A program made the translations under genes and the position numbers. A DNA stretch of 64,000 bases from Paragemmobacter ruber (GTDB lineage: Bacteria > Pseudomonadota > Alphaproteobacteria > Rhodobacterales > Rhodobacteraceae). The stretch covers positions 186,001 to 250,000 of the forward strand of contig NZ_JAAATW010000001.1 in assembly GCF_009908315.1 (NCBI RefSeq), in the 5' to 3' direction. Positions 25,215 through 39,743 of this stretch are shown one piece after another (within the stretch, counting starts at the first letter, position 1; every line of letters starts with the position of its first letter). A model generated the notes under the pieces. The model did no database searches. It was not told where the DNA came from and worked only from the letters and a program-made list of their open reading frames with translations.

Positions 25215-25598
25215 ATGCGTCGCTATTTTCAATGTTTCAAGGTATTTGGCGAAGTTGCCGATCTGATGCTGCTCGAACGGCCCGAGCGGCGTCTGCTGAT
25301 CGACGTGTCGCTGGAACCCGCGAATCATGGGCCGGGGCGTAACCCCTATCCGCTGCGCACGACATTCTGCATCACCGACAGCGCCCTGATGGAGCGGTTC
25401 CTGTCCGAAATCGCGATCGGTGATGCCATTGACGCCCAGGGAACTTTCGTTCAGTCCGACTACATCCCTCACCGCACCACCTGCATCGACACGACCTTCC
25501 TCATGCTGGATTTCAGACGCCTCGCCGATCCGGAACAGCTGATCCCGGCACCCGCCGAATTTGCGAAGGATGCGCTGCGCAGGATGCGGCTGCATTGA
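25215..25598 (+). CDS. Unknown small protein ahead of a histidine kinase
   Basis: Protein of 127 residues with a strong GGAGGG ribosome site. I do not recognise the family. The composition and the segment GDAIDAQGTFVQSDYIPHRT followed by TTFLMLDFRRLADP suggest a small beta-rich, possibly OB-like fold; this is a guess. There is no signal peptide or membrane span. Its TGA overlaps the earliest possible start (TTG at 25595) of the kinase gene, so the two are almost certainly made together, and it may be a ligand-binding or regulatory partner of that kinase. Confidence 0.7.
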   Translation: MRRYFQCFKVFGEVADLMLLERPERRLLIDVSLEPANHGPGRNPYPLRTTFCITDSALMERFLSEIAIGDAIDAQGTFVQSDYIPHRTTCIDTTFLMLDFRRLADPEQLIPAPAEFAKDALRRMRLH

Positions 25599-25618
25599 AC
25601 GAAAGGCTCGACCAGAGC

Positions 25619-27052
25619 ATGACATCCGCCCCCTACAGCGCGGCAACGGCCTCGACCCGCGGCAGTCGTCTGACGACCGCGATGCGCGTGCGCCGGTATC
25701 TGCGCGCGGCGCTTCGCCTTGAAACCAGCGCCACCCGGCTGGAAAAGCAGGTGCGCGACTATGTGAACGGCAGCCTGGAGCTGTTCTGGAAGCGCCAGAC
25801 GATCTATGCGGCGGCCGCGATGCTGTGCGGGTTCTACTATGATCTGCAGGTGGCGGTGCTGTGCTACCTGTTCATCCAGTTCACCGAGTTTTGCGACACG
25901 TGGCTGTCGCTGCGGATCGTGAAATGGAAGGGCGGCGGCCTTCGCGAGGCGCGGCGTTACCGCGACCTTCTGCTGCTTTCAGCGGTGCAAAGCACGACCG
26001 CGATCGTTCTCTGGGCGGGCATCGTTGCGCATATGGAGGGGATCTCCTCCCACTTCATGCCCCTGTTCTTCCTTTTTGCGGCGGGGCTTTTCGCCGCCGT
26101 GAACAACCATCAGATCCCGCAGATCCTTTTGCTGCGGCTCATCATGTATACGGGGGTGTTCCTCTACATCCCCATCGCCGATCTGCTTCACGTGCGCCCC
26201 CCGATCCAAAGCTTCCTTTGGCTGCAGCTGTTCACGGTGGTGTTCGTCCTGTTCTTCGTGATCGAATGTTCCGTCATCTTCCTGCGGCTGTATCGGCGCG
26301 GGCTCGATCAGCTGGATGAACTGCGCCTTGAGCGTGACCGCGTGCAGGCCGCCTATGAGGTGAAATCGCAGTTCGTCTCGGTGGTCAGCCACGAATTGCG
26401 CACCCCGCTTACTTCCATCAACGGGGCGCTTGGCTTGCTGCGGACGGGCGCCTATGACGCCGATCCCGCGAAGGCGCGCAACATCCTTGAAATCGCGCAT
26501 AAAAACAGCATCCGCCTGTCCGCACTGATCAACGATCTTCTGGACCTTCAGAAGATCGAATCGGGGCAGATGAGTTATAACTTCGAAGAGATCGACCTGT
26601 CCGATACCATCGACGAATGCATCGGCTCGATGGAAACATTCGCGCAGGCCTACGGGATTACCATTGATTTCAAACCGCCTGAGCGATCGGCCATCGTCGT
26701 CGGCGACCGGGACCGCCTGCATCAGGTGCTGGATAACCTGATGTCGAACGCGATCAAGTTCTCACGGCGTGGCGAAAAGGTGCATGTGCGCGTCCGCAGA
26801 GACGCCGACCGTATCCTTGTCGAAGTGGAAGATCGGGGGATCGGCATCCCACCGGATTCGCGCGACAAGGTGTTTGGCAAGTTCACGCAGGTGGATTCGT
26901 CGGATCGGCGCAGCCACGGCGGCACCGGCCTTGGCCTGTGCATCGCGCAAGAGATCATGGCCGCACATGGTGGCAGCGTGGATTACAGCAGCACCCTTGG
27001 CGAAGGCACCACCTTCGTGATTGATTTTCCCCTGAAGGACAGAACGAAATGA
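25619..27052 (+). CDS. Membrane histidine kinase
   Basis: Sensor kinase of 477 residues with about six transmembrane helices (roughly 60-220) and no large periplasmic domain, so it probably senses membrane state or a membrane-soluble signal. The kinase core has the phospho-acceptor His258 in VVSHELRTPLTSING, then NLMSNAIKFS (N box), DRGIGIP (G1) and GGTGLGLCIAQEI (G2). It has no receiver domain of its own. The ATG at 25619 is preferred; a TTG at 25595 overlapping the upstream stop is an alternative. It overlaps the Hpt gene by 4 bp (ATGA), defining a kinase-Hpt pair. The signal could be the lactone made by the adjacent synthase, but that is speculation. Confidence 0.88.
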   Translation: MTSAPYSAATASTRGSRLTTAMRVRRYLRAALRLETSATRLEKQVRDYVNGSLELFWKRQTIYAAAAMLCGFYYDLQVAVLCYLFIQFTEFCDTWLSLRIVKWKGGGLREARRYRDLLLLSAVQSTTAIVLWAGIVAHMEGISSHFMPLFFLFAAGLFAAVNNHQIPQILLLRLIMYTGVFLYIPIADLLHVRPPIQSFLWLQLFTVVFVLFFVIECSVIFLRLYRRGLDQLDELRLERDRVQAAYEVKSQFVSVVSHELRTPLTSINGALGLLRTGAYDADPAKARNILEIAHKNSIRLSALINDLLDLQKIESGQMSYNFEEIDLSDTIDECIGSMETFAQAYGITIDFKPPERSAIVVGDRDRLHQVLDNLMSNAIKFSRRGEKVHVRVRRDADRILVEVEDRGIGIPPDSRDKVFGKFTQVDSSDRRSHGGTGLGLCIAQEIMAAHGGSVDYSSTLGEGTTFVIDFPLKDRTK

Positions 27053-27408
27053 CGTTTCAAGCAGATGTTCCCCAGCACGCTGACATGGCCGCCCGGCTTG
27101 CGCCAATCCGTGCGCATTTCGTGGGAACCCTGCCGCCCCGGCGCGACCGGTTGGTGATGTTCCTCGCCCTGTCCGGCGAGCGCGCGCCAGATCCCGCGGT
27201 GATGCGGCAGTTGCAGGAAGATGCTCACAAGATCAGGGGTGTGGCACCGACGCTGGGTTTTGATGCGCTGGGACAGGTTGCCGCGAAAGCGGATGAAATC
27301 CTCGAACCCTGGCGCGACAGTGTGGACAGCGCACCCCTCACCGAGGATGTCATCCGCGCCCTCGCCAACCTTCTGGCCGAGGTTGAAAAGCTGATCGTTT
27401 CCGCCTGA
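27049..27408 (+). CDS. Hpt-domain phosphotransfer protein
   Basis: Protein of 119 residues, all-helical, with the histidine phosphotransfer motif AHKIRGVAPTLGF, phospho-acceptor His60. It overlaps the kinase gene by 4 bp and ends directly against the convergent receiver gene. It would shuttle phosphate between the kinase partner and one or both receivers of the cluster (the 23.0-kb GGDEF-like protein and the 27.4-kb receiver). Confidence 0.85.
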   Translation: MTFQADVPQHADMAARLAPIRAHFVGTLPPRRDRLVMFLALSGERAPDPAVMRQLQEDAHKIRGVAPTLGFDALGQVAAKADEILEPWRDSVDSAPLTEDVIRALANLLAEVEKLIVSA

Positions 27409-27807
27409 TCAGCCGGCGCTGCCGTCTTTCCGCGATTTCCATATCCGCCGGATGTCGGCAGGCAAAGACACAGGATCGAAGGGCTTGGTGATGCGCCCCA
27501 GCACGCCCAAGCCGCCGAACTCTGCCTCGACCGTATCCATCGCCTTTGCCGTCATGAAGATGGCGGGTGTCTGGGCAAGTTCAGGTTGTTCCCGCAAGGC
27601 CTGCAGGGTCTGCAACCCGTTCATCTCTGGCATCATGTAATCAAGAAGAAGAAGGTCGGGGGCGAAGGCCGCAGCCTGAACCACGGCCTGCGCGCCGGAC
27701 GAGCATTGCAACACTTCAAAGCCGCCCAGATCTGCAAGGGCAAGCCGTGCGATCATCAGGATATCCTCATCGTCTTCGACGTGAAGGATACGGTTCAGAA
27801 CAGTCAT
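27409..27807 (-). CDS. Single-domain response regulator (CheY-like)
   Basis: Receiver domain of 132 residues with EDDE at 11-14, phospho-acceptor Asp56 in LLLDYMMPEMNG, MTAKA and the TKPFDP lysine. There is no output domain. Its stop abuts that of hpt, so it is transcribed toward the kinase operon from its own promoter in the 27808-28362 gap. It may act as a phosphate sink or as the second station of a kinase-REC-Hpt-REC relay. Confidence 0.87.
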   Translation of the reverse strand: MTVLNRILHVEDDEDILMIARLALADLGGFEVLQCSSGAQAVVQAAAFAPDLLLLDYMMPEMNGLQTLQALREQPELAQTPAIFMTAKAMDTVEAEFGGLGVLGRITKPFDPVSLPADIRRIWKSRKDGSAG

Positions 27808-28362
27808 CGGCACCCCCCGCAGCGCCCGGTAGCCGGTTATCCCCAACCGTCACCCTCGACAGAGCCTGACGATCCGGTGACGTTGCGTCAATCGCCCCGT
27901 GTGGAAAAGTTATCCAATTGTGCAAACGAAATGTTTCCCGATCGCGAACGACAGGGCACAAACGCCACAACGGATCGCCGACTTTGCATTTTCGAGCGTG
28001 CCATAACGGGCGCCGTTCCGCCACCGCTTCCGTTGCGTAATGGGCCGTCCGAAACCTGATCTGCACCTCCGCAAGGCATAATCATCCAACGCGCCTCGGG
28101 CAGCTTCCGGCTGAAGTGAAACATCGCAAACATACAACAAGCCGCCGACCCGCAAAGGACGGCACCTGCCAGAATGCCTGAAATTGAACAGTCCCCGTCT
28201 TCGGCGGGCCGGAACCGAAAAGCGCGGTCTCGGCCCTGCAACTTGGGTTGCAGAGCCGAGACATGCGATCGGGGTGCAATGGCGCGAGGTGCGGACAAGG
28301 CACTTGGATAGATCGGCGCAGACAGCGCGATCAATCACCATTCCAGAACAGAACCAAAGCCA
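27808..28362. other. Intergenic region between receiver and eptA
   Basis: 555 bp without a recognisable gene. It contains a short dyad TGACG-TTG-CGTCA at 27878-27890 in the receiver promoter region and a long hairpin near 28245. Open frames here lack family resemblance. Confidence 0.5.
28227..28262. promoter_or_regulatory. 36-bp imperfect palindrome upstream of eptA
   Basis: Arms GTCTCGGC-C-CTGCAAC and GTTGCAG-A-GCCGAGAC close on a TTGG loop: 15 paired bases with a single C/A mismatch. It lies 100 bp before the eptA ATG. On the minus strand it is followed by a GCGCTTTTC stretch, so it could be a terminator of a leftward RNA, a leader hairpin of eptA or a regulator site. Confidence 0.7.
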
Positions 28363-30030
28363 ATGTCGACAATCCCAGACCTGCTGGCCACCCTGCCGCT
28401 CAAGGCGGACCGCCCCCTTGGCTGCCCCTTCCCGCGTCCGGTGATCGGAAGCGTGCCGTACAGCCTCGCGGTCACGGCGTTCATCATGGCTGCGGACAAT
28501 CAGACGTTCTGGCGACGCAGTCTGGAGGTCTTTGACGGCAACCTGCTGCAGCTTGCAGGCTGGGGTGGCGCCGTTTCCATGCTGACGCTTCTGACCCTCA
28601 GCTTGCCCGGCTTCCGTTGGCTGCTGCGGCCGATGGCGGCTTTCCTGCTGATCCTCGCCTCGGTCACATCGTATTTCATGGACAGACTCGGGATCATCAT
28701 CGACCGCGAGATGATCCAGAACGCCATGCTGACGACCATGTCCGAATCCAAGCATCTGATGACATGGAGTTTCGTGGCACAGGTGATCATCTGGGGCGTC
28801 CTGCCGGCTGTCGTGGCGCTTTGGGTGCGCGTGCGCCGCGGGCCATTGCTTGGCGATACGCTGCGCTGGGGGCTGACGGTGGCCGTGACGCTGGCCGTCT
28901 TCGCGGGCCTGCTTTTCAGCGACTTCAAGGCCTATTCTGCTGTGGCACGCGAACATAAGGAAGTTCTCGCCAGCTATCAGCCGGGTGCCGCCCTCAGCGG
29001 TGCCGTGCGCTATGCCAAGATGATGCTGAAGGCAAAGAACGTCGTGGTCAGCCCGGTCGGCCTGGACGCGCATAAGGGACAGCGGATCAGCACGCTGGCA
29101 AAGCCCGTGCTGACGGTGGTCTTTGTGGGGGAAACCGCACGGGCGCAGAACTTTGCCCTGAACGGCTATGACCGCCCGACCACACCAGAACTGGAACGGC
29201 GCGGCGTGATCAACTTCACCGATGTCACCTCTTGCGGAACCTCGACCGCGGTATCGGTGCCCTGCATGATGTCGAACCTTACGCGGGATGGCTATTCCTA
29301 CAACCGTTCGATCCGGCAAGAGAACCTGATCGACGTGTTGCATCATGCCGATGTAGACGTCCTCTGGTGGGACAACAATACAGGCGATCAGGGTGTCGCC
29401 GCGCGGATCACCAAGGCCCGCCGCATGACCGCGGCCGACGACCCAGAGGCCTGCGTCGCAGGCGAATGTACGGATGCGGTCTTTCTCGGCCCGCTGAAAC
29501 AGGCCCTGCCCACGATCACCCGCGATACGGTGCTTTTCGTGCATATGATCGGCAGCCATGGACCGAGCTACTACCTTCGCTATCCGCCGTCTGCTGAATA
29601 CTTCACCCCGGCCTGCCGCACCGCCGAGTTCGCCGACTGCACGGTTCAGGAAATCGTCAATGCCTATGACAACTCGATCCGCTTCACGGATACCGTGATC
29701 GCCCGGACGATTGACCTGCTGTCGGCGCAGACGAACATTGCCCCCGCGGTGCTGTATCTGTCAGACCACGGGGAATCGTTGGGCGAGGATGGCCTCTATC
29801 TGCACGCCGCGCCCTATTTCATGGCCCCTGCGACCCAGACCACGGTGCCCATGATGATGTGGTTGCCCGACAGCTACACCTCCGGGCTGGCGGTCCAGCG
29901 CAACTGCATAGAGGCCAAGGCCGGGCAATCCCAAAGCCATGACAACCTGTTTCACACCGTTCTTGGCCTGATGGACATCGAGACGGAGGCACGCGATCCG
30001 TCGCTCGATCTGATCAGCGGCTGCCTCTAG
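28363..30030 (+). CDS. eptA: Lipid A phosphoethanolamine transferase (EptA/MCR family)
   Basis: Inner-membrane enzyme of 555 residues that moves phosphoethanolamine from phosphatidylethanolamine to lipid A, lowering negative charge and binding of cationic peptides. Four to five N-terminal membrane helices (about 30-190) precede a periplasmic sulfatase-fold domain. That domain has VVFVGETARAQNFALNGY (metal-binding Glu), the nucleophile threonine in SCGTSTAVSVPCMMSN, HMIGSHGPSYYLRYP and LSDHGESLGEDGLYLHAAP. Cysteines in the domain fit the usual disulfides. No PmrAB-type two-component pair is adjacent; the nearest regulators are the relay genes upstream. The last base pairs are shared with the convergent oxidoreductase gene: both stops lie in one CTAG. 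Confidence 0.92.
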   Translation: MSTIPDLLATLPLKADRPLGCPFPRPVIGSVPYSLAVTAFIMAADNQTFWRRSLEVFDGNLLQLAGWGGAVSMLTLLTLSLPGFRWLLRPMAAFLLILASVTSYFMDRLGIIIDREMIQNAMLTTMSESKHLMTWSFVAQVIIWGVLPAVVALWVRVRRGPLLGDTLRWGLTVAVTLAVFAGLLFSDFKAYSAVAREHKEVLASYQPGAALSGAVRYAKMMLKAKNVVVSPVGLDAHKGQRISTLAKPVLTVVFVGETARAQNFALNGYDRPTTPELERRGVINFTDVTSCGTSTAVSVPCMMSNLTRDGYSYNRSIRQENLIDVLHHADVDVLWWDNNTGDQGVAARITKARRMTAADDPEACVAGECTDAVFLGPLKQALPTITRDTVLFVHMIGSHGPSYYLRYPPSAEYFTPACRTAEFADCTVQEIVNAYDNSIRFTDTVIARTIDLLSAQTNIAPAVLYLSDHGESLGEDGLYLHAAPYFMAPATQTTVPMMMWLPDSYTSGLAVQRNCIEAKAGQSQSHDNLFHTVLGLMDIETEARDPSLDLISGCL

Positions 30031-32009
30031 ACGGCGCACCCGGCCTTCAGCCCCTCGAACACCGCTTCTTCCGCGGTGCGGGGGGCAAGACAATCGCCCG
30101 CCATATGCAGCTCGATCCCCAGCGCCTCCACCGTCGCTGCCAGATCATCGACAGGCCGATGCCCGAGGCAGAGCACCAGCGTGTCGATCTCGGCCAATTC
30201 GACCGCCTCGGCAGAGGGCACATGCTGAAGGAACACGCTGCCTTCCGCCGTGCCGAACAGGCGCATGTAGGGGCGCACCTCGACCCGCAGGCGATGGAGT
30301 TCGGCGGCGATGTTGTCGCGCACATAAAGCGGCAGCACCTCGCCCGCATGAAGCCCGTTCACCGCCAAGGTGACCGCGGATCCTGCCTTGGCCAGCATTT
30401 CCGCCACCCCGGGACCGATCCAGTCGCAACGCCAATCCGCCACGACGACGCGCCCGCCGGGGCGCACCTCGCCGCGCAGCACCTGCCACGCGGTCACGAC
30501 CTGCACCGATCCGTCATGGGGCATGTCGGCGGGCAGGTGCGGCTCTGCGCCGGTGGCCAGGATCACCGCATCGGGGCGCTCGGCCCGCAGGACGGCCTCT
30601 GTCACCCGCGCGCCCCGCCGCAGCGGGATCTGCGCGCGCTCCACCTCGCGCAGAAGGTTGGTGACCAGACCACCGAATTCGGCCCGTCGGGGAAGCAGTT
30701 GCGCAAGCAGGGCCTGCCCCCCCGGTTGCCCCCCAGCCTCGTGGATGGTCACGGAATGGCCGCGCCGCGCGGCCGTCACGGCAGCCTTCATCCCGGCAGG
30801 ACCGCCACCGACGACAAGCACCTTCTTGCGCTGCGGCGCAGGCGGCAGGCTTGCATAGGCCAATTCGCGGCCGGTTTCGGGATGCTGAATGCAGGACACG
30901 GGCAATCCCTTGTGGAAATGCCCGATGCAGGCCTGATTGCAGCCGATGCAGGCGCGGATGTCGTCCACCGCGCCGCGCGCTGCCTTGGCCGGCATTTCGG
31001 GGTCTGCGATCAATGCCCGCGTCATGCCGCAGACATCCGCCAGCCCCGCCGCGAGGATGGCCTCGGCCTCATGCGGCTGGTTGATCCGGCCCGCCACGAA
31101 GACCGGCACGCGCAGCGCCCGGCGAAAGGCCCCGGCATCCTGTGCAACATAGCCCGGCGCATAGGCCATCGGTGGCGCGATATGCACCGCCCCCCCAACC
31201 GAGGCCGAGGTGCCCGTCGTGACATTCACATAATCAAGATCGCCCTGAAGGGCGATGCAGGCCTCCAGCGCCTCGGGGATGGTCAGGCCCTCATCATCAC
31301 GCTCGCCCGCGCTGATCCTCAGGCCGATCACGAAATCCTCATCCGTCTCGGCCCGGATCGCCTGCAGCACTTGGCGCAGGAATGCCTGCCTCCGCGGGGC
31401 ATCACCGCCATAGGCATCTTGGCGGCGGTTCACCCGGGGGTTCAGGAACTGCGCCGGCAGATAGCCATGGCTTGCCACAACCTCCACCCCGTCCAGCCCC
31501 GCCGCATGCATACGGCGCGCGCCGGCGGCATAGCCTGCGATAATCTCGTCGATCAGCGGCACCGTCAGGGCGCGGGGCATGACATGGAACCGCTCATTCG
31601 GGCTGATCGAGGGCGCATAGGCCACCGCCAGCAATCCATCCGCGCTTTCCATGATTTCGCGCCCGGGATGAAAAAGCTGCGAGATGACCGTGGCCCCCGC
31701 GTCATGCAGGGCCTCAGCCAGCCGTCGATAGCCCGGGATACAGCCATCCGTCGTCGCCATCAGCAGATGCGATGTGTAGCGCGCGGTTTCATGCACGCCG
31801 GCCACCTGCGTGACGATCAACCCCGCCCCACCCCGCGCGCGCGCCAAGTGATAGGCGATCAGCGCGTCATTTACGGTGCCGTCCTTTGGCAGAACCGTGT
31901 CATGGCCGGTGGACATGATGCGGTTGCGGATCGTTGCGCCGCGAATGCGCAGCGGAGAGAAGAAATGCGGAAACGCTGACGCTCTGCCGGTCCGTTCGTC
32001 CGCGATCAT
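30027..32009 (-). CDS. Fe-S flavin oxidoreductase, trimethylamine dehydrogenase family
   Basis: Protein of 660 residues with the three-part build of trimethylamine dehydrogenase, histamine dehydrogenase and 2,4-dienoyl-CoA reductase. It has an FMN-binding TIM barrel (FSPLRIRGATIRNRIMSTGH, VEVVASHGYLPAQFLNPRVNRR), a 4Fe-4S site (CIGCNQACIG then SCIQHP) and a C-terminal FAD/NAD domain (KVLVVGGGPAGMKAAVTAARRGH). Several homologues are annotated as N-methylproline or stachydrine-type demethylases. With a complete methylamine pathway 8 kb away, an N-demethylating role is attractive but unproven. The start at 32009 follows the family N-terminus; the long open frame upstream is not coding. It is divergent from the Tat-peptide gene. 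Confidence 0.82.
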   Translation of the reverse strand: MIADERTGRASAFPHFFSPLRIRGATIRNRIMSTGHDTVLPKDGTVNDALIAYHLARARGGAGLIVTQVAGVHETARYTSHLLMATTDGCIPGYRRLAEALHDAGATVISQLFHPGREIMESADGLLAVAYAPSISPNERFHVMPRALTVPLIDEIIAGYAAGARRMHAAGLDGVEVVASHGYLPAQFLNPRVNRRQDAYGGDAPRRQAFLRQVLQAIRAETDEDFVIGLRISAGERDDEGLTIPEALEACIALQGDLDYVNVTTGTSASVGGAVHIAPPMAYAPGYVAQDAGAFRRALRVPVFVAGRINQPHEAEAILAAGLADVCGMTRALIADPEMPAKAARGAVDDIRACIGCNQACIGHFHKGLPVSCIQHPETGRELAYASLPPAPQRKKVLVVGGGPAGMKAAVTAARRGHSVTIHEAGGQPGGQALLAQLLPRRAEFGGLVTNLLREVERAQIPLRRGARVTEAVLRAERPDAVILATGAEPHLPADMPHDGSVQVVTAWQVLRGEVRPGGRVVVADWRCDWIGPGVAEMLAKAGSAVTLAVNGLHAGEVLPLYVRDNIAAELHRLRVEVRPYMRLFGTAEGSVFLQHVPSAEAVELAEIDTLVLCLGHRPVDDLAATVEALGIELHMAGDCLAPRTAEEAVFEGLKAGCAV

Positions 32010-32209
32010 GTGCCTGCCTCCGCCTTCGGTCCTTCCGCGCCGCGTGAACGATGGCGGCTTTCGCCCTTTCCGGCCCGCTCGCCGCCGACGGCAAACCAGC
32101 ATGAGGCGACATGCGATGCCCGCGCCTCCCTGTCGGTGCGCCGCGATCACCCGGGACAGCCCCCCTTTTGCGCAGGCCGACGCGGCGGCGAAAAACTTTC
32201 GCGGGCCGC

Positions 32210-32234
32210 GGAATAAGTCGGCGACGCCTGCGTT
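32210..32234 (+). promoter_or_regulatory. Possible ECF-type promoter of the Tat-peptide gene
   Basis: GGAAT at 32210-32214 and CGTT at 32231-32234 with a 16-bp spacer resemble promoters of group IV (ECF/EcfG-type) sigma factors, 58 bp before the ATG of the Tat-exported small protein. The match is short and could be chance. Confidence 0.3.
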
Positions 32235-32291
32235 GTATCTGCGTCGGCATGACCGGCCAAGGTCACAGCAACATGCATGAAGGATACGAAG

Positions 32292-32666
32292 ATGCAGAAC
32301 GATGACACGAAATCCAACGTCATGACGCGCCGCAACCTGCTCCGCCGCGTCGGTCTGGCAGCGGGCGCCGCCTATATCGCGCCGGCCATGGTCGGGTTCA
32401 GCGCGGCGCGTGCCAGCAGCGGCGGTTCGGGCGGTGGCAACTCGGGCGGCGGCAATTCGGGTGGCAACTCGCGGGGGAACTCCGGCGCCTCGCGGTCGGG
32501 GTCCAGCGGCCAGTCGTCGGGCGCATCGCGTGGCCGCAATTCCCGGCCGTCGAACGACTTCAGCGCATCGCGCGGCACGTCGAACACGTCGGGCCCGTCG
32601 CGGGGCCGCGGCCAGGGCGCGGGCGCCAACCCGGCCTGGGTCGATCGGATCATGCAGGGCCTCTGA
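32292..32666 (+). CDS. Tat-exported Gly/Ser/Arg-rich small protein
   Basis: Small protein of 124 residues. Residues 11-45 form a twin-arginine signal (TRRNLLRRVG, then a hydrophobic stretch AAGAAYIAPAMVGFSAARA), with a likely cut after ARA. The mature part, about 85 residues, is low-complexity: repeated GGNSGG blocks, then SRG/SGS units with many serines and arginines, one NDF, and a distinct tail NPAWVDRIMQGL. No enzyme fold is expected. The start at 32292 is preferred over 32277 because AAGGA lies at the right distance before it. It is followed after 52 bp by the HprK-PqqD fusion, which has the domain set of a peptide-modifying kinase, so this protein is a candidate substrate or precursor peptide. 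I know no named family for it. Confidence 0.78.
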   Translation: MQNDDTKSNVMTRRNLLRRVGLAAGAAYIAPAMVGFSAARASSGGSGGGNSGGGNSGGNSRGNSGASRSGSSGQSSGASRGRNSRPSNDFSASRGTSNTSGPSRGRGQGAGANPAWVDRIMQGL

Positions 32667-32697
32667 TTTGGGCGCGCACCGATCCCACAAGAACGCA

Positions 32698-32723
32698 GGC
32701 ACGGGAGAGTTCTCTCCCGTGCC
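32698..32723 (+). promoter_or_regulatory. 26-bp perfect palindrome over the RBS and GTG start of the kinase gene
   Basis: GGCACGGGAGAG, TT, CTCTCCCGTGCC: two perfect 12-bp arms. The GGGAG ribosome-binding site (703-707 of this kilobase) is in the left arm and the GTG start (32719) in the right arm. In RNA the stem would hide both, so translation of the fusion gene should be low unless the stem is opened or ribosomes arrive from upstream. There is no T-run, so it is not a standard terminator. It could also be a dimeric repressor site. Confidence 0.75.
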
Positions 32724-33960
32724 GCTGCTCTGGAGGCTGCAGTTCGACGGCATCGCCGCGCCGGTCCTTCTTCCGCAACAGGCGGAGTTTCTGGCCGCGC
32801 TGGACCAATGCATCACTGGATGGCGTCACAGAGTTTCGAATTTCGATCCCGACGATCCGGCCAGTGAACGCCCGCTCTGCATCATCGAGGCGCGTCCGGG
32901 CGGCACCTATCGCGCGCATTCCCGCTTTATCGAGGGGCCGCTGGATGGGCTGGGTGTTGCGACCGCCGTCTGCGTGATCTTGGCCGACCTGTCCCAGCAT
33001 TACGCCGATCTCGATCTTGGACATGCGTTCGGCCTGCATTGCGGCGGCGTCATTATGAACGACCGCGCGATCATCCTTGCGGGTGAGAAACGCGCTGGAA
33101 AATCCACCCTCGTCGCGCGGCTTGCTTGCGACGACGGGGTCACGGTGCTGAGCGATGATGTCCTGCCCATCGATCATTCGGGCACCATCACAGGCCTTGG
33201 TCTGGCACCCCGCCTGCGCCTTCCTCTGCCGGTCAATGCCTCGTCTGCATTTCGGGCGCAGGTGGATCGGCTGCTCGGCGCGGCGGATGATCGTTACGGC
33301 TATCTGCTGACGCCCGGCCTCGCCCCGCATGGGCGGCGCGCCAAGGCCCACGCCTTCATCCTGCTGGACCGGCGCCCGGACGGCCCGGCCGCGTTGCATC
33401 ATCTGGCCGAGGATGAGTTGCTGCAGGCAATCATCGCCCGCAGCATTGCCGGCCCGGATGGGCCCGAGGCCGTGCTGGATGCGGCGGAAAGTCTGGCCGT
33501 CGGAATGGTCGGGCTGCGATTAGTCTATTCCGATCTTGAAGAGGCCACGCGCCTGCTGCACCGGGCCTTTGCCGCGACCACGGACCAGAGGCAGCCAAGG
33601 GTGGACATCGGCCCCCCCCTTTCCCCCCGATCCGCGCCGGACAGGCGCGATCCCGCCCAACTGGACCCTGCCCAGCGCCTTGCACGCCAGCCCGATACCG
33701 CGATCCGGCACGTCGGTGGTGCCGCCTTTCTCTGGCGTCCCGGCGATGCCATGCTTTGGCACCTCAACCCGGCGGCACAGGCCATCTGGGCCCTTCTGGA
33801 CCGAAGCGCCACCGCCAACGAGATCACCGATGACATGACCGTGATCTTCCCCGAGGTGCCCGCCGCCCAGCTGTTTGCAGACACGCGCCAGATGCTGGCG
33901 CAACTCTGCGAGGAAGGCTTTGTGCTGCCCGCGCCGCCAAACGGCGCCGATGGCGCTTGA
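32719..33960 (+). CDS. HPr kinase-like and PqqD-like domain fusion protein
   Basis: Protein of 413 residues joining two domains. Residues about 100-300 resemble the P-loop half of HPr kinase/phosphorylase: LHCGGVIMN, Walker A AGEKRAGKST (121-130) and the SDDV acidic pair near 145-148. Residues about 330-405 resemble PqqD, the small winged-helix domain that binds leader peptides of ribosomally made, modified peptides (FLWRPGDAMLWHLNPAAQAIW ... LCEEGFVLP). HprK homologues phosphorylate lasso-peptide serines in some gram-positive clusters, and PqqD domains deliver precursor peptides, so a peptide-serine kinase is the natural guess, with the Ser-rich Tat protein upstream as candidate substrate. 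The GTG at 32719 is the best start; TTG at 32668 is possible. A 14-bp-stem terminator follows. Function is not established. Confidence 0.8.
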   Translation: MPLLWRLQFDGIAAPVLLPQQAEFLAALDQCITGWRHRVSNFDPDDPASERPLCIIEARPGGTYRAHSRFIEGPLDGLGVATAVCVILADLSQHYADLDLGHAFGLHCGGVIMNDRAIILAGEKRAGKSTLVARLACDDGVTVLSDDVLPIDHSGTITGLGLAPRLRLPLPVNASSAFRAQVDRLLGAADDRYGYLLTPGLAPHGRRAKAHAFILLDRRPDGPAALHHLAEDELLQAIIARSIAGPDGPEAVLDAAESLAVGMVGLRLVYSDLEEATRLLHRAFAATTDQRQPRVDIGPPLSPRSAPDRRDPAQLDPAQRLARQPDTAIRHVGGAAFLWRPGDAMLWHLNPAAQAIWALLDRSATANEITDDMTVIFPEVPAAQLFADTRQMLAQLCEEGFVLPAPPNGADGA

Positions 33961-33961
33961 C

Positions 33962-33994
33962 CAGCGTCCGGGGCGGGCAACGCCCCGGACGCTG
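33962..33994. terminator. Bidirectional terminator, HprK-PqqD gene / dabA
   Basis: Perfect 14-bp inverted repeat (CAGCGTCCGGGGCG / CGCCCCGGACGCTG) with a 5-nt loop between two convergent stops, only 1 and 8 bp from them. There is no T-run, but its position and strength fit a shared terminator. Confidence 0.8.
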
Positions 33995-34002
33995 TGGCGA
34001 TG

Positions 34003-36384
34003 TCAGACGGGGTCACCCGGAAGAATGGCGTGTCTGTCCCAGTCCAGCGACTTGCGGTAACGCGCCACGACCCGACCTTCCTGCAAGGCCAGAAGGTGCA
34101 GCCACCCATTGTCGAACAAGGCTCGCACCCCGTCATGCTTGCGCAGAACGTCGGTCATTGCATCCAGCGGCGCTTCGATCATCACAGTCAGGCGCAGCGG
34201 CTCATGCCCTGCCGCGGTGCCGTCATGCACCGCCTGCCACGGCAGCCCCGCGCGCAGGATGCCACCGTTCCCCTCGACCACGCCAATGCCGCCCACGACA
34301 TTGTGGATCAGCTTGTTGCCACCGCCGAAAACCTCGGGCGTGATTGTCGATGCATAGTATTGCAGGCTGATCCAGCTTGCCACCACAACCGGCGCGGTCA
34401 GGATCAGCTCCAGCGTGCCAAATCCGCCATCCGCCTGCCAGTCATAGCTGTGCAGGAAGGCCCTGCCCCCCAGATTCTTGCCTTTCGTCACGCGGCGCGG
34501 CGCAGCGATGAAGGCCGCGCATCCCGCAAGGCCCCATTCTGGGCGCACCTCAGACCAGTCAGAGGCGCGCTTGGCCAAGGTATCGGTAGTTGCGCCGGGC
34601 AGACGCAGCGCACGCTCAGCCCGCGCGACCTTTCCTGCCGCAGCCAGCCAGCCTTCGGCCCGGGCAATATCCGCTAGATGGCCGGGGGCCTCACTGTCCT
34701 TGTAAAGCTGCACCCGATCCGTCACCGTGTCGTGCAGCCCGGCCAGGAAAAGCGTGTCGCTGGGCAATTCAATCCCGAAAGTGGAAAGCCCGGCCCGCGT
34801 CTCAGGATCATTCAGCAGCGCTGCCAGAAGACGGGCCGAAACCTCGCCCGTCTGGCCGCAGCAGGCGCCGCAGTGATAAGCGCTTTCATGCGGATTGTTG
34901 GTCACCTGCGCACCGTGACCAAGCAGCAGCACCAGCCGCGCGTGACCTTGGGTCAGGCTCATTGCCCGCAGCACAGCGGCCGCCGTCTTGGCCTTCTGTT
35001 CCCCCGTCAGCCCGTCCTCAAGACGCGGCATGGGTGATGCGGCCAGCCCTTCGCCACCGGCGCGCAGTGCATCACGCACCAGCTTGCCGCCGTAGAAGGG
35101 ACCGGTCGCTTCGACAAAAGCAAAGGATGACACGGCCGCCTGCCGGAACCGCCCCCAGGCACGCTTTGCGCGGGCGGCGATGCGTCTGGCCTCCTCTGCG
35201 GCATCGTCCCCGTGGCTGGTAGAGATGAGCGCAGGGTTCAACAGCGCGGGCAGGTGCGCCTGAACCTCATCCGTCCCGGCGGGCCGATGCCCGATCGGAA
35301 GGCCGAAGAACCCGGCAAAGCCGATCGTTTCGATGCCGTCGTTCTGATCTTCCAGCGCCCGGCGCAGGATTTCCGAGCGGACGTCGATGCAGAAGGCCGC
35401 CTGCAGCAAGGGGCGCCCCGCCTGCGGCGCCGGCCCAGACAGCAGCCCGGCCAGATGCCGCTGGTGGGCACGCTCTGCCGCCTCTTGCAGGATGGCATCC
35501 AGCGTCTGATCCGGCGATGGCGACAGCGCCGCCCCGTGCAGGGCGACCGTGGCCTGCCAATCCGCCGCGATCTCGGGACATTGCGCCAGCAACGCCTCTT
35601 CCCAGACCAGACGGATCGCCAGAAGATCGGTCAAGGTCGTCTCTGCCTGTCCCTTCAGCTCTGCCTGCCACAGCAGCCAGCGCGCATGCATGGACCACCC
35701 CCCAAGATCAAGCAGCAGCCGGTGGAACACCGTCTCGGCCGCCTCGACCGTCAGTCCCAGCTTCTCGCTGGCCCGCAGGACCGCGCGATCCGCCGTGTCG
35801 GGGGCCGCTGCCACATGGGCGCAGAACTCGGCCAAGCCCGCGATTTCAGGCGTCAGGTCATGCGTCGCCCATTCCCGCCACGCGGCAAAGGCCCCCTGTC
35901 CCGACCGCGGTGTCCAAAGCGCCTGACCACGGTCAAAGTATCCCGCCGCCCACAGGCCGAAGCTGCGCGCGATCACCGCGGGCCAGTCGCGCCCGGTCAC
36001 CAGCGCGGCAAGTTCGGCCACCGTCGGCAGGGCCGCAGGTGCTTCGGCAGGCCCATGCATGCGGGCCTTGAGCATCGCCAGATCCAGCGGCTTGACCGGC
36101 GACGCGCTGGCGATCAGCGCGGCGGCAAGATCATCATCGGTGATCTCGCCTCTTGCGACCTTGGCCGACAGGTCCGCGCGCGGTTGCGTCAGGCCGATGC
36201 CCGCAACGCGGGCCAGCCGGGCCGAGGCCTGCGCAAGGTCTTCCCCGGTCTGCCCGAGGAACGGGTTCACCGCCACCGTGGCGTCCAGCGGAAAGGCGGG
36301 CGGGATCGCGCGCGCCGCTGCCTCTGCCGCCCGCAGCAAGTGCGATGCAAAGGAGGGTGCGATCTGCGTATGTTTCAGAAACAT
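34003..36384 (-). CDS. dabA: Inorganic carbon uptake protein DabA
   Basis: Protein of 793 residues of the DUF2309 family, the cytoplasmic carbonic-anhydrase-like half of the DAB energy-coupled bicarbonate accumulation system. The zinc-site residues are in place: Cys332 and Asp334 (FCIDVRSE), His490 (LLGHGAQV) and Cys505 ([10 protein letters not shown]), with the same 2- and 15-residue spacings as Cys351/Asp353 and His524/Cys539 of the Halothiobacillus protein. It should hydrate CO2 in one direction, driven by the partner DabB. It starts 15 bp after dabB, in one operon. Organisms carrying it often fix CO2 or need bicarbonate for anaplerosis. Confidence 0.94.
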
Positions 36385-36399
36385 GCTTGCCTCCAGAAA

Positions 36400-37944
36400 T
36401 CAGGATTTTGCCGAGGTACGGAAACCGCCGATCATCCGATCGAGCAGCGCGTTGAGATAAAGCCCGTTGGCCAGATGCACGCGCAGCCCCGCCATCGACG
36501 GGTGATGCGCCCAGATCGGAAACAGGGCCTGCGCAAAGGCGACCAGCCCGAAAGACAGGACCGCCACCACGATCAGCGCCCATTCCAGCGGGCCAGCCAC
36601 CGGCGTGACGGGCAGTGACGGCCCCCAGATGGCCTGCGCCAGCACCTGAAAGCTGAAATATGCCAACGCCGCCGCGATCGAAGCCCCCACCGTGCGCCGC
36701 GTCAGCGCACCCGGAGCGGCATCCGCCAGCCCCTGGGCGATCAGATAGGACACCCCGAAGATTAGGATCGCCCCCAGCGCCAGCGCCTGCGGCGACTTCT
36801 CACCCACCAGCGCTGAAAACCCGGCGGCAACACCGATGTAAAGCGTCAAGGCCAGCGCGAAGGACCGCCCCACCGCCAGCAGGCCCGGCACGGCCACCGG
36901 CCCGGGCTTGCGCAGCGCATTCACCGCGCGCACCGCACCGCCCGAAGACAGGAAGGCATGGGCCTTGTAAAGCGAATGGGCGATGATGTGCAAAAGCGCC
37001 AGTGCCCAAAGACCCAATCCGCATTGCAGCAGCATGAACCCCATCTGCGATACGGTGGACCAGGCCAAAGCCGTCTTCACGGCGCTCTGCGTCAGCATGA
37101 CCAGCGCCCCGAACAGGGCCGTGAAACCGCCCAGCACAACCAGTGCGGCCATCGCGCCCGGGCTTTGCTGCACCAGCCCAGACAGGGTGATCAGCAGCAC
37201 GCCGCCGGAATTGATGATGCCTGCGTGCAGCAGGGCGGAAACCGGCGTCGGCGCCTCCATCACCTCGGTCAGCCAGCCGTGCAGCGGAAAGGCCGCTGTC
37301 TTCAACGCCGCAGACAGCACGATCAGCGAAACCGCGACCTGCGCCCCCGTCGGCAGCGCATCGGCAGAGATCAGCGTCGCGATTTCGACCGATCCTAAGC
37401 CGTGCCAAAGGAGGATCGACGCGGCCACAAGGGCCATATCGCCAGCCGCCCAGACACGGATAAACTTGGCCGCCGCCCGCTGCGCCTCGCGCCGGTCGGC
37501 ATAAAACAGCAGAAGTTGGCGCAGAACCAGACCGGTCGCGACAAAGGACAGGACGAGGACCGGCAAGCTCGCCGCCTGCACCAGAACCAGAACCGACGCG
37601 ACGGCGGTCAAGGTCAGGGCATGGAAGCGGCCCTCCCGCGCCTCGCCGTCCAGATAACGGCGGGCATAACGCAGGACCACCCAGCCGACGAAAGCCACCA
37701 GAAGGGCAAGGGTCACGCTGACCGGATCCAGCCGGACCAGATCCAAGCCGAACAGCGCAAGGGTTTCTGGCCCCGTGATCCAAAGCCGCACGGCCGCCGC
37801 AAGCGCAAATGCAACTGACACAAGGGCGGCGGTTTCAGCCAGCACAGGCAGCCGACCGGGGCGGCGGCCCGGATGCAGGGCGAACGGCATGGCTGCTGCC
37901 AAAAGGATCAGCGGGCCAAGGGCTAGGATCGGCACAGTCATCAT
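36400..37944 (-). CDS. dabB: DabB, NuoL-like cation-coupled membrane subunit
   Basis: Membrane protein of 514 residues with about 13 helices, homologous to the antiporter-like NuoL/MrpA subunits (proton-conducting transporter family). Marks include LKTAAFPLHGWLTEVMEAPTPVSALLHAGIINSGG and KTALAWSTVSQMGFMLLQCG, containing the lysine and glutamate channel residues. It anchors DabA and supplies proton or sodium flux. Two adjacent ATG codons at the start make either possible. It is divergent from a LysR regulator across 96 bp. Confidence 0.93.
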   Translation of the reverse strand: MMTVPILALGPLILLAAAMPFALHPGRRPGRLPVLAETAALVSVAFALAAAVRLWITGPETLALFGLDLVRLDPVSVTLALLVAFVGWVVLRYARRYLDGEAREGRFHALTLTAVASVLVLVQAASLPVLVLSFVATGLVLRQLLLFYADRREAQRAAAKFIRVWAAGDMALVAASILLWHGLGSVEIATLISADALPTGAQVAVSLIVLSAALKTAAFPLHGWLTEVMEAPTPVSALLHAGIINSGGVLLITLSGLVQQSPGAMAALVVLGGFTALFGALVMLTQSAVKTALAWSTVSQMGFMLLQCGLGLWALALLHIIAHSLYKAHAFLSSGGAVRAVNALRKPGPVAVPGLLAVGRSFALALTLYIGVAAGFSALVGEKSPQALALGAILIFGVSYLIAQGLADAAPGALTRRTVGASIAAALAYFSFQVLAQAIWGPSLPVTPVAGPLEWALIVVAVLSFGLVAFAQALFPIWAHHPSMAGLRVHLANGLYLNALLDRMIGGFRTSAKS

Positions 37945-37989
37945 CGCGATCTCCCATTGAACGACAAAGGGCGATGTAGCGCTTGCAGA

Positions 37990-38009
37990 ATATGCAGAAA
38001 ATTACATAT
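37990..38009. promoter_or_regulatory. LysR-type operator candidate between dabB and lysR gene
   Basis: ATATG, 10-bp spacer, CATAT: a dyad that contains the T-N11-A core of LysR-type sites, in the middle of the 96-bp AT-rich divergent gap. It is well placed to control both dabBA and the regulator. Confidence 0.6.
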
Positions 38010-38040
38010 ATTCGACGATATCATTCCACAAAATAGAACA

Positions 38041-38913
38041 ATGTCACAGATCAACCTGCATCACCTGCGCCTCTTCCGGGCGGTCGCCAGCGACGGGACA
38101 CTGACCGGCGCGGCGCGCGCGCTGAACCTGTCGCAATCCGCGCTGTCCACGCAACTCAAAGCGCTGGAGGCGTCGCTCGGGCAGGATCTGTTCGAAAGGC
38201 GCGGCCGCGGCCTTGTGCTGACCGAAGCAGGCCGCATCGCGCTCGACCATGCCGAAGCGATCTTCCGCACCGCCGATGACCTGACCGCCACCCTGCGCGA
38301 AACCGGCAGGGCGCGGCGCGCGCTGCGCGTGGGCGCGCTTGCAACCCTGTCACGCAATTTCCAGATGCAGTTCCTGCGCCCCCTGCTCGGACGCGCGGAT
38401 GTAGAGGTCGTCCTGCGCTCGGGATCGCAAGAGGAACTGTTGCAGGGCCTTGAAGAACTTGCGCTCGACGTGATCCTGACAAATGTCGCGCCTGCGCGCG
38501 ATGCCACAAGCCACTGGCTGATCCACCGGCTGGACGAACAGCCCGTCAGCCTGATCGGAACGCCCGCCCGTGCAGGTTCTGCACCCTATCAGCTGCGCCA
38601 GTTGCTCGGCACGCAACCGCTGATCGTGCCGACGCGGACCACAGCCCTGCGCGCGGCCTTCGATGCGCTGGCGGCACGGCTGAACGTCGCCCCGATCCTT
38701 GCCGCCGAGGTGGATGACATGGCCATGATCCGCCTTCTCACCCGCGCCGATGCGGGGCTGGCGATCATTCCCCCTATCGTGGTGCGTGATGAGTTGCAGG
38801 CCGGCTCGCTGGTCGAGGTCAGCCGCCTGGACGGCATCAGCGAAACCTTCTTCGCCGTCACCCGCGAACGCCGCTTTCCCAACCCGCTTCTGGGGGATGT
38901 CTTGAAGGCTTGA
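38041..38913 (+). CDS. LysR-family regulator of the dabBA operon
   Basis: LysR-type regulator of 290 residues. The N-terminal winged helix-turn-helix is textbook (LHHLRLFRAVASDGTLTGAARALNLSQSALSTQLKALEASLGQDLFERRGRGLVLTEAG, residues 5-62) and is followed by a substrate-binding domain (RVGALATLSRNFQMQFLRPLL, LGTQPLIVPTRTT). The closest familiar type is NhaR/CbbR-like. It is divergent from dabBA with a candidate operator between, so it most likely responds to inorganic carbon status; the ligand is unknown. Confidence 0.88.
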   Translation: MSQINLHHLRLFRAVASDGTLTGAARALNLSQSALSTQLKALEASLGQDLFERRGRGLVLTEAGRIALDHAEAIFRTADDLTATLRETGRARRALRVGALATLSRNFQMQFLRPLLGRADVEVVLRSGSQEELLQGLEELALDVILTNVAPARDATSHWLIHRLDEQPVSLIGTPARAGSAPYQLRQLLGTQPLIVPTRTTALRAAFDALAARLNVAPILAAEVDDMAMIRLLTRADAGLAIIPPIVVRDELQAGSLVEVSRLDGISETFFAVTRERRFPNPLLGDVLKA

Positions 38914-38924
38914 GGGATCAAGAC

Positions 38925-39743
38925 GGTGCTGTCAGACGAATGCGAACGCGTCTCCATTCGCCCTACCCATGGCTTACGTCAGGCAACGAGGAGACCGCGC
39001 CACTCGGCAACGGCGGCGGCGCGGTTGGCCTTGTAGTGGTCTCGTGACGTTAGCGTTCGCTCCAAGTTGAAGTGGCCGCAGACAGAGGCGTGGACGGTAG
39101 CGAACTTCTGCAGACTTCGCATGCGCCGGAACCGCAGCATCGCGCGCTCCCGCCTTCGGAAAGGCGGATGAGAGCTCTCTGCCCTGTTGTTTGCCCACCG
39201 GGCGATCTCCTGGTCATCGCCACGGCCGAGGTCTTTCAGCGCTGCCCCGTAGGAGCGCAGCTTGTCTGTGACGATTGTTTCAGGGCGCCCATGCCGGCGC
39301 ATGGATTTCTTCAGAAATTTCAACGCAAACTTGCGATCCCGTGTCTTTGTCACGAAGCTTTCGAGGACCTCGCCCTCGTGATCGACGGCCCGCCAGAGGT
39401 AGTGCATCGCGCCGTTGATCTTCACGCACATCTCGTCGAGGTGCCACTTCCACTTGCGGCACTGGCTCATGCGATCGACGCGCTTTCTGCGGATTTCGGC
39501 TGCGAAGATCGGGCCGAAACGGTTCCACCACCAGCGGACAGTTTCATGGCTGATCTCGATGCCCCGCTCGTGGAGGAGATCCTCCACGTTCCGCAGCGAC
39601 AGCGGGAAGCGGATTTAGAGCATCACCGCGAGGCGGATGATCACGGGGCTGGTCTTGAAGTATCGGAAGGGGGATCGTTGGGTCATCTGGGCAGTCGAGT
39701 GGCGTCCACTCCGCAGAGCAATGCAAGCTCCTCTGACATTGCC
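38925..39743. mobile_element. IS6-family insertion sequence, inactive
   Basis: About 819 bp containing one transposase frame. Possible terminal inverted repeats are GGTGCTGTCAGA (38925-38936) and TCTGACATTGCC (39732-39743), pairing 9 of 12. Size and gene fit the IS6 family. I find no 8-bp target duplication. It starts 12 bp behind the lysR stop, so ends are approximate. Confidence 0.65.
38979..39686 (-). pseudogene. IS6-family transposase with internal stop
   Basis: The frame from ATG at 39686 reads MTQRSPFRYFKTSPVIIRL and has TAA at codon 24 (39615-39617), then stays open for 211 codons to 38979. Without the stop it would be 235 residues, the normal IS6 length. The DDE catalytic triad is visible downstream: Asp in WHLDEMCVKING, Asp in IVTDKLRSYG, Glu in NRAESSHPPFRRRE. 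The family usually has a tyrosine codon where TAA stands. A shortened protein could start inside, but it would lack the N-terminal DNA-binding helix. Confidence 0.85.

Follow-up and report, generated by a model that had tools for sequence, protein, structure and literature searches.

Near the middle of a 64,000-nucleotide stretch of the Paragemmobacter ruber genome (contig NZ_JAAATW010000001.1, positions 186,001 to 250,000; hereafter the window), two adjoining genes on the plus strand encode a 124-residue peptide (open reading frame [ORF] 32292-32666) and a protein, ending at 33960, in which a predicted HprK-like kinase is fused to a PqqD domain. A preliminary description had noted here a Ser/Gly/Arg-rich protein with a twin-arginine translocation (Tat) signal beside an HprK-PqqD fusion, and translation and domain searches confirmed it. 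We describe the linkage of the two genes across genomes and the peptide-modification system that they probably form. In it, the PqqD domain would act as a RiPP recognition element (RRE; RiPP, ribosomally synthesized and post-translationally modified peptide). The principal features of the locus are as follows.

32292..32666, plus strand: precursor peptide gene, 124 aa, with Tat signal/leader, Ser/Gly/Arg-rich body and amphipathic tail (translation, leader profile)
32322..32414, plus strand: Tat signal, also predicted to be the RRE leader (MTRRNLLRRVGLAAGAAYIAPAMVGFSAARA; profile A5 was built from 34 leaders of this type)
32373..32390, plus strand: YIAPAM, that is YxxPx[LM], resembling the lasso leader motif YxxPxL (leader alignment)
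32415..32627, plus strand: Ser/Gly/Arg-rich tract, the predicted modification region, with Ser/Thr spaced by threes (periodicity test)
32628..32663, plus strand: C-terminal tail NPAWVDRIMQGL, with similar Trp-containing tails in some relatives only (translation, by-eye comparison)
32719..33960, plus strand: fusion of kinase and PqqD, 413 aa long if it starts at GTG 32719 and 430 aa if at TTG 32668
33037..33039, plus strand: His107, invariant, counterpart of the HprK and lasso-kinase His (alignment, profile)
33082..33108, plus strand: Walker A GEKRAGKST, residues 122-130 (AGKS invariant in alignment A1)
33154..33159, plus strand: Asp146-Asp147, invariant, the Asp pair of HprK and lasso kinases (alignment, profile)
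33739..33924, plus strand: PqqD (RRE) domain, residues 341-402, modeled with three helices after the strands (Pfam, AlphaFold model)

Homologues were collected through the kinase alone, without use of the peptide. They came from 23 strong hits (E ≤ 1e-15) in 295 genomes of the family, from hits of a class-wide search and from 44 named loci. Duplicates (L108, L124, L126, L133 and L137 repeat existing records), loci with short upstream DNA (L111, L125, L149) and spurious pattern hits (L102, L106) were removed, giving 62 testable loci: the window, L037-L056, L087-L090, 30 of L107-L143, L144-L148, L177 and L178. All 62 had, directly upstream and on the same strand, an ORF with an RR motif, a hydrophobic stretch and Y-x-x-P, which as a rule continues into a low-complexity tract containing Ser/Thr. 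Separate kinase and PqqD profiles confirmed the fusion in 61 of them (the L115 contig ends before PqqD), so the suggestion that such a peptide always stands beside fusion homologues held throughout this set. Given the 62/62 count, a chance pairing of ORFs was rejected. Two weak kinase hits outside the 62, L179 and L180, have no peptide.

A search of the phylum gave five extra loci; one (L234) is the Mesorhizobium record of L146, leaving four new fusions from another class, each with the peptide. A plasmid search gave six hits, of which two records were opened, and the Shinella record carries a complete set. In the annotation of the two records, the kinase appears only as 'PqqD family protein'; the peptide is either labeled 'hypothetical protein' or left unlisted. 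No match to the kinase was seen in 18 other genomes of the window's genus, and the distribution is therefore patchy; a first contig search with a single protein as query found no match. In a tree of the fusions, those with basic peptides form a clade of 38 rows (100/99), two of which (L111, L125) lack a peptide sequence, and those with acidic or neutral peptides a clade of 14 rows (99/98).

Leader and kinase also occur together at the level of whole genomes. Among 385 alphaproteobacterial genomes, the leader was found in 33 of the 36 with a strong kinase versus 2 of the 349 others (Fisher 7e-42, common descent ignored), at limits picked after the lists had been seen (kinase E ≤ 1e-20, leader E ≤ 1e-5). 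Thirty of these 33 genomes had supplied no row to the leader profile. G620 was counted as a kinase genome through its PqqD match. Counted as lacking the kinase were 20 genomes of the class with matches of 1e-10 to 1e-20 and, in the family-level test given below, 10 genomes with weaker matches; none of them has the leader at the limits applied.

The window peptide shows the features of a Tat substrate (RR motif, hydrophobic stretch, AxA) and is predicted to be exported by Tat; the curated Tat model TIGR01409 scored it at 12.5 bits, under the cut-off of 16.7. Within the signal lies the motif YxxPx[LMFVI]xx[LMFVI]. Across 68 leaders (from the 62 loci with upstream DNA and six split-gene loci), the residues at +5 and +8 after the Tyr are hydrophobic in 68/68 each, and Ala occupies +11 in 65 and +13 in 61. 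The +5 residue is Leu in 29/68; the window has M for L. YxxPxL is a conserved leader motif of lasso-peptide precursors (PMC10368454; this and the other papers cited by accession are drawn on here in excerpt). The lasso-type Thr (or Ile/Val) at leader position -2 is absent if the leader ends at AxA, which reads ARA in the window. Within the genome, the leader profile matched the window peptide, itself a profile row, at E 1.0e-15 and the next best protein at E 0.98. YxxPx[LMFIV] was present in the signal of none of the genome's 24 other Tat-model hits (14 above the model cut-off). An ordinary Tat protein was rejected, as the motif is missing from these 24 and the leader is nearly confined to kinase genomes.

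Ser and Thr recur at regular intervals in the tract. Over the set, the conditional frequency of Ser/Thr at lag 3 was 0.574, compared with 0.292 after shuffling (z 25.9), and harmonics appeared at lags 6, 9 and 12; the period was individually significant (p < 0.05) in 47 of the 62 loci, with p 0.02 for the window peptide. Spacers vary (SGG, SRP, SEP, SAA, TRP), and the fusion-linked peptides of the other class have YSRP repeats, several being rich in His. What the tract conserves appears to be the hydroxyl residue and its spacing, with the spacers left free. The C-terminal tails, compared by eye, are Trp-containing and amphipathic in some relatives, carry two cysteines in others and have neither in the rest. 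The preliminary description had the kinase binding either the leader or the tail. The leader half of that proposal gains from the lasso-like YxxPx[hydrophobic] motif; the tail was rejected as a binding site because tails differ among relatives.

An AlphaFold model of the fusion (predicted local distance difference test score 91.8) has the fold of HprK and phosphoenolpyruvate carboxykinase (PEPCK). A fold search with the whole model matched PEPCK and HprK chains, and these matches concern the kinase half only; a Pfam scan of the fusion had no HprK family among its matches. H107, A126-G127-K128-S129 and D146-D147 are invariant across 21 sequences, and H107, G127, K128, D146 and D147 across 41, S129 not being among them. 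The window kinase retains the H, GKS and DD set of the lasso-peptide kinase; in the lasso kinase BsfK, residues that matter are H148, G163, K169, S170, D186 and D187 (PMC10368454). We read the fusion as an HprK-like kinase, with phosphoryl transfer to Ser/Thr as its predicted reaction. The C-terminal domain, earlier called PqqD-like, is PqqD by Pfam (PF05402, E 8e-11, 42.5 bits versus a cut-off of 23.4), by its modeled strands and three helices, and by profile, with lasso RREs nearest: the closest solved relative in the PDB is the lasso RRE TbiB1 (E 1.9e-7), and other RRE chains also match. The motif and the co-occurrence suggest that this domain binds the leader.

In many alphaproteobacteria, kinase and PqqD are two adjacent genes. 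At these split-gene loci the peptide lies upstream in six cases (L091-L095, L101), downstream in one (L096) and nowhere nearby in seven (L097, L099, L100, L103-L106); L098, L102 and L150 could not be judged. The leader was found in 19 of the 20 split-gene genomes searched, seven of which were already known to have the peptide beside the kinase. For six of the seven loci without a nearby peptide, the genome bears a leader elsewhere (the exception is G414). Among the split-gene genomes, leaders set apart from the kinase lie ∼37-43 kb from it in G608, G606, G338, G396, G519 and G685, ∼119 kb away in G506, and on another contig in G392, G377, G432, G615 and G598. P[ST]x(x)C follows the leader directly in 15/15 trans peptides matched by script, and L230 and L231 have PSRPC and PTPC, which fall outside the script's expression. 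In four trans peptides, the Ser of P[ST]x(x)C is the sole hydroxyl residue of the mature part. In G247, a small Ser-rich protein with a leader-like start (C6:52509-52598, L214), in which the Pro of YxxP is replaced (YVAT), is encoded on a different contig from the kinase. By eye, the split genes at L097, L100, L103 and L106 stand just behind a RegA-like response-regulator ORF, and three of these four genomes have a leader peptide elsewhere. A nucleotidyltransferase-like cluster has members near seven split-gene loci (L091, L093-L096, L102, L104); the L093 member matches NTP_transf_5 at E 2.3e-27.

The leader heads three kinds of exported protein: small peptides, subtilases and other Ser-rich proteins. 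In the window's clade, a protein of ∼450 aa with the same leader lies upstream in 19 loci and forms one similarity cluster. Pfam assigns its member in Rhodobacter sp. SY28-1 (L107), the window's nearest relative at 54% identity, to the subtilases (S8, E 3e-23). Another leader-bearing protein of this kind is encoded elsewhere in G068. Near the leader-bearing subtilase, the opposite strand carries genes for an extracytoplasmic function (ECF) sigma factor and an anti-sigma-like protein, the family assignments being those of L107 alone. In a second clade, another leader-bearing Ser-rich protein is encoded downstream in six loci, five of which have response-regulator and histidine-kinase genes behind (families tested for L048). 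The L048 downstream protein had no Pfam family and an uninformative NCBIfam result, and is PepSY-like by eye only. A two-gene system, as first proposed, is thus too narrow, since relatives add a subtilase with ECF sigma/anti-sigma genes, two-component genes or, where the genes are split, a nucleotidyltransferase. In the window, only the two core genes adjoin. Elsewhere in its genome (G000:C3:256311-257498; L175/L176) is a 42%-identical S8 subtilase homologue with an Asp-rich N-terminus and, by eye, no Tat leader, and so the subtilase partner seems to be missing.

The spacing of the two genes depends on the start codon. The 52-bp gap reported earlier holds if the kinase begins at GTG 32719, and not if it begins at the in-frame TTG 32668, one base past the peptide stop; L107 has ATG at the position matching this TTG. 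Two hairpins mark the ends of the kinase gene.

32698..32723, plus strand: perfect 12-bp inverted repeat (hairpin) spanning the GTG start (sequence; L107 comparison)
33962..33994, plus strand: 14-bp hairpin behind the kinase gene, without a T run (sequence)

L107 has a hairpin of partly different sequence in the same place as the first (4977-5005). Of 70 loci, two of them later dropped as spurious, 31 have a strong hairpin beyond the peptide stop, equaled by at most 1 of 30 mononucleotide shuffles and varied in sequence; the element is therefore frequent but not general. Possibly, it serves to balance the transcripts. The strong terminator claimed behind the kinase gene did not hold up: an intrinsic terminator was rejected for the second hairpin because the T run is absent. 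Convergent with the pair, at 34003-37944 on the minus strand, are DabA and proton-antiporter-type (DabB-like) genes, and by eye similar ORFs also lie behind the system in L107. A short distance upstream is an EptA/EptB-type phosphoethanolamine transferase gene (28363-30030, plus strand), and 38982-39587 on the minus strand is an IS240-type DDE transposase ORF.

Our preferred interpretation, which we consider fairly probable, is a minimal export-coupled peptide-modification system: PqqD would take hold of the Tat signal and treat it as a RiPP leader; the kinase would phosphorylate Ser/Thr of the attached tract, and Tat would export the product. Its starting point is the genomic association of two proteins, one small and bearing a Tat signal, the other a predicted kinase of HprK/PEPCK fold joined to an RRE of PqqD type. 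PqqD would bind the part of the signal bearing YxxPx[LM]xx[LF], so that export signal and RiPP leader would be one, a reading prompted by the motif itself and by its near-confinement to genomes with the kinase. The tethered kinase would then act on Ser/Thr of the low-complexity tract, or on the P[ST]xC Ser/Thr of split-gene peptides. Here the conserved catalytic residues and the lasso-kinase precedent are our guides: BsfK alone phosphorylates its precursor poorly but does so well with the RRE BsfB1, the target being Ser or Thr (PMC10368454). The modified peptide would leave the RRE and cross the membrane via Tat, and its signal would be cut at AxA. Tat rather than Sec (the general secretory pathway) fits because the product must be finished where ATP is. 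Speculatively, spaced phosphoserines outside the cytoplasm could make a charged or metal-binding envelope polymer. Links to sigma-factor and two-component genes, together with the His-rich variants, suggest a role in envelope stress or metal binding, a suggestion in which our confidence is low. More tentatively, the system may represent an undescribed class in Pseudomonadota, in which the Tat signal is the RiPP leader and the fused PqqD masks it until the Ser/Thr array is phosphorylated, a form of proof-reading. The leader-plus-tract module would then mark small peptides, subtilases and two-component-linked proteins for phosphorylation before secretion.

Several observations weigh against phosphorylation guided by the Tat signal. 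The kinase half scores far under every curated family cut-off. Significant period-3 Ser/Thr is lacking in 15 of the 62 peptides, and some are poor in Ser/Thr (down to 10%). The motif overlaps the hydrophobic core of the Tat signal, and part of its conservation may therefore serve Tat or signal peptidase. YxxP was in the expression by which leaders were collected, which fixed Tyr and Pro; +5, +8, +11 and +13 were not used. An earlier screen without the YxxP requirement found the peptide in 17 of 21 loci, the other four being read by eye, and all 21 have YxxP. BsfA with Y, P and L of YxxPxL all changed to Ala was phosphorylated no less (PMC10368454), so the motif may serve binding yet be non-essential for the kinase step, or may serve another step. 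Co-occurrence within the family speaks for the model, with a limit: in its 295 genomes, the leader occurred in 23/23 strong-kinase genomes versus 1/272 others (kinase E ≤ 1e-15, leader E ≤ 1e-7, picked after the lists had been seen), a test that is informative only in the one exception and in the absence from the other 271, because all 23 kinase genomes supplied rows to the leader profile. The exception is G237, whose contig ends inside a kinase N-terminus; leader matches of E 1e-5 to 1e-3 without a strong kinase occur in five family genomes (G025, G061, G148, G227, G276). In the class, G414, G495 and G620 have a strong kinase or PqqD match and no leader hit, and G424 and G683 a leader hit without a strong kinase. 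At L178 (G164:C1, ∼5300-5970), the kinase half is divided between two reading frames while the leader peptide next to it is intact, which means a broken kinase or a sequencing slip. On the Paracoccus marcusii CP157 plasmid (L244, ∼3472-3935), the reading frame of the peptide does not survive beyond YxxP, through natural pseudogene formation or again a sequencing slip; the kinase-PqqD, subtilase and sigma genes remain, and the peptide region has no listed coding sequence in a table that is incomplete.

Tat redox enzymes have dedicated signal-binding proteins, NapD and TorD. The fusion could be a counterpart, an ATP-driven chaperone or proof-reader that holds the Tat signal until export and modifies nothing. 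We consider this unlikely: the predicted binding motif does sit inside the Tat signal, and the leader is also found at the front of bigger exported proteins, subtilases among them, but the catalytic residues of the kinase are invariant, most bodies keep spaced Ser/Thr, and proof-reading of this kind usually serves a folded cofactor protein, which is absent from the small peptide. Quite unlikely, too, is that the kinase carries out a different chemistry or only an opening step, after which the phosphoserine would be eliminated or would receive a sugar or a nucleotide, as happens in phosphoglycosylated lasso peptides. The nucleotidyltransferase-like cluster near seven split-gene loci would suit this, as such enzymes extend phosphorylated lasso peptides (PMC8498205), yet none is among the seven window neighbours scanned, and the fusion loci compared have no cluster member within ∼5 kb.

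That the peptide is a regulator whose binding to PqqD switches the kinase, with another protein such as HPr as the real target, strikes us as improbable. The HprK fold and the sigma-factor or two-component genes adjoining several operons are in its favor, but it sits poorly with a leader found on three kinds of exported protein and with short trans peptides that keep Ser/Thr right after the leader. It is very improbable that the small ORF is an ordinary low-complexity exported protein sharing an operon incidentally; low-complexity Ser/Gly/Arg proteins are common and the tract sequence is not conserved, but the 62/62 linkage and the near-exclusive co-occurrence of leader and kinase, also in trans, argue otherwise.

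If signal-guided phosphorylation is correct, this would be a natural RiPP-like system exported by Tat, in which the recognition site of modification is the export signal. Bacteria such as Rhodobacter, Paracoccus, Roseovarius, Loktanella, Gemmobacter, Mesorhizobium, Guyparkeria and Shinella would have in it a means of secreting poly-phosphorylated peptides. The role of RRE-guided kinases beyond lasso peptides, and the timing of cytoplasmic modification with export, become testable, and the leader profile predicts substrates genome-wide, also far from the kinase.

The nearest known systems are the tailoring kinases of lasso peptides with their RREs (BsfK/BsfB1; PadeK, ThcoK and SyanK; PMC10368454, PMC8498205). 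Going by the excerpts used, these have in common with the window system the H, GKS and DD set, a PqqD-type RRE partner (BsfB1 boosts the kinase), a YxxPxL leader and a Ser/Thr target. Unlike them, the window has kinase and RRE in one chain, a long low-complexity tract in place of the lasso core, and a leader that is a Tat signal ending in AxA with no Thr at -2. The absence of a cyclase, radical SAM protein or B-type peptidase, remarked on in the preliminary description, was upheld by a Pfam scan of seven window neighbours (25595-39587). An ordinary lasso cluster was rejected, as neither a B2-type peptidase nor an asparagine-synthetase-like cyclase is among these seven; the search did not extend to other ORFs or to the remainder of the genome. 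The HPr-rel-A cassette (HprK_rel_A, TIGR04352; PqqD_rel_X, TIGR04353), for which a literature search found no paper, also pairs an HprK-related kinase with a PqqD-family protein, but the window protein falls under both cut-offs (26 bits versus 200 for TIGR04352, 13.9 versus 35 for TIGR04353), and no model in that NCBIfam scan covers the Tat peptide. Compared with the HPr kinase/phosphorylase and PEPCK superfamily, it has an extra N-terminal part and the C-terminal PqqD.

Other parallels lie among RRE-associated modifications of exported precursors. In bufferins (MNIO/DUF692 RiPPs; PMC12452194), as here, the precursor N-terminus is an export signal. Precursors of DUF2063-associated RREs carry Sec signals, for which the portion of the structural RRE survey used here gives no specific motif, and the word 'kinase' is absent from its main text (PMC12710340); the window precursor is of the Tat type. 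Bufferin and DUF2063 clusters, as described in the same excerpts, count sigma-factor genes among their members, as do some relatives of the window. The window differs from bufferins in that a kinase replaces the MNIO oxygenase, a Ser/Thr tract takes the place of the Cys motifs, and the signal contains a YxxPxL-like motif; Pfam scans of the two genes and of seven neighbours showed neither an MNIO enzyme nor a DUF2063 partner. The cited excerpts mention Tat export of RiPPs only as engineering, with preliminary attempts that failed (PMC5686179) and nisin display through Tat (cited in PMC11048544). As had been supposed, the literature search found no named system of this kind, no description of a Tat-leader kinase system and no biochemical work on any member; it covered few subscription papers, so absence is no proof. 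The locus shows one mark of a RiPP system: the gene for a precursor adjoins that for a putative modifying enzyme, whose PqqD domain is predicted to recognize the leader. Taken part by part, the proposed system belongs to a known kind, RRE-guided peptide modification; what is surprising is the union of leader and Tat signal, and also the spread of that leader over several secreted proteins.

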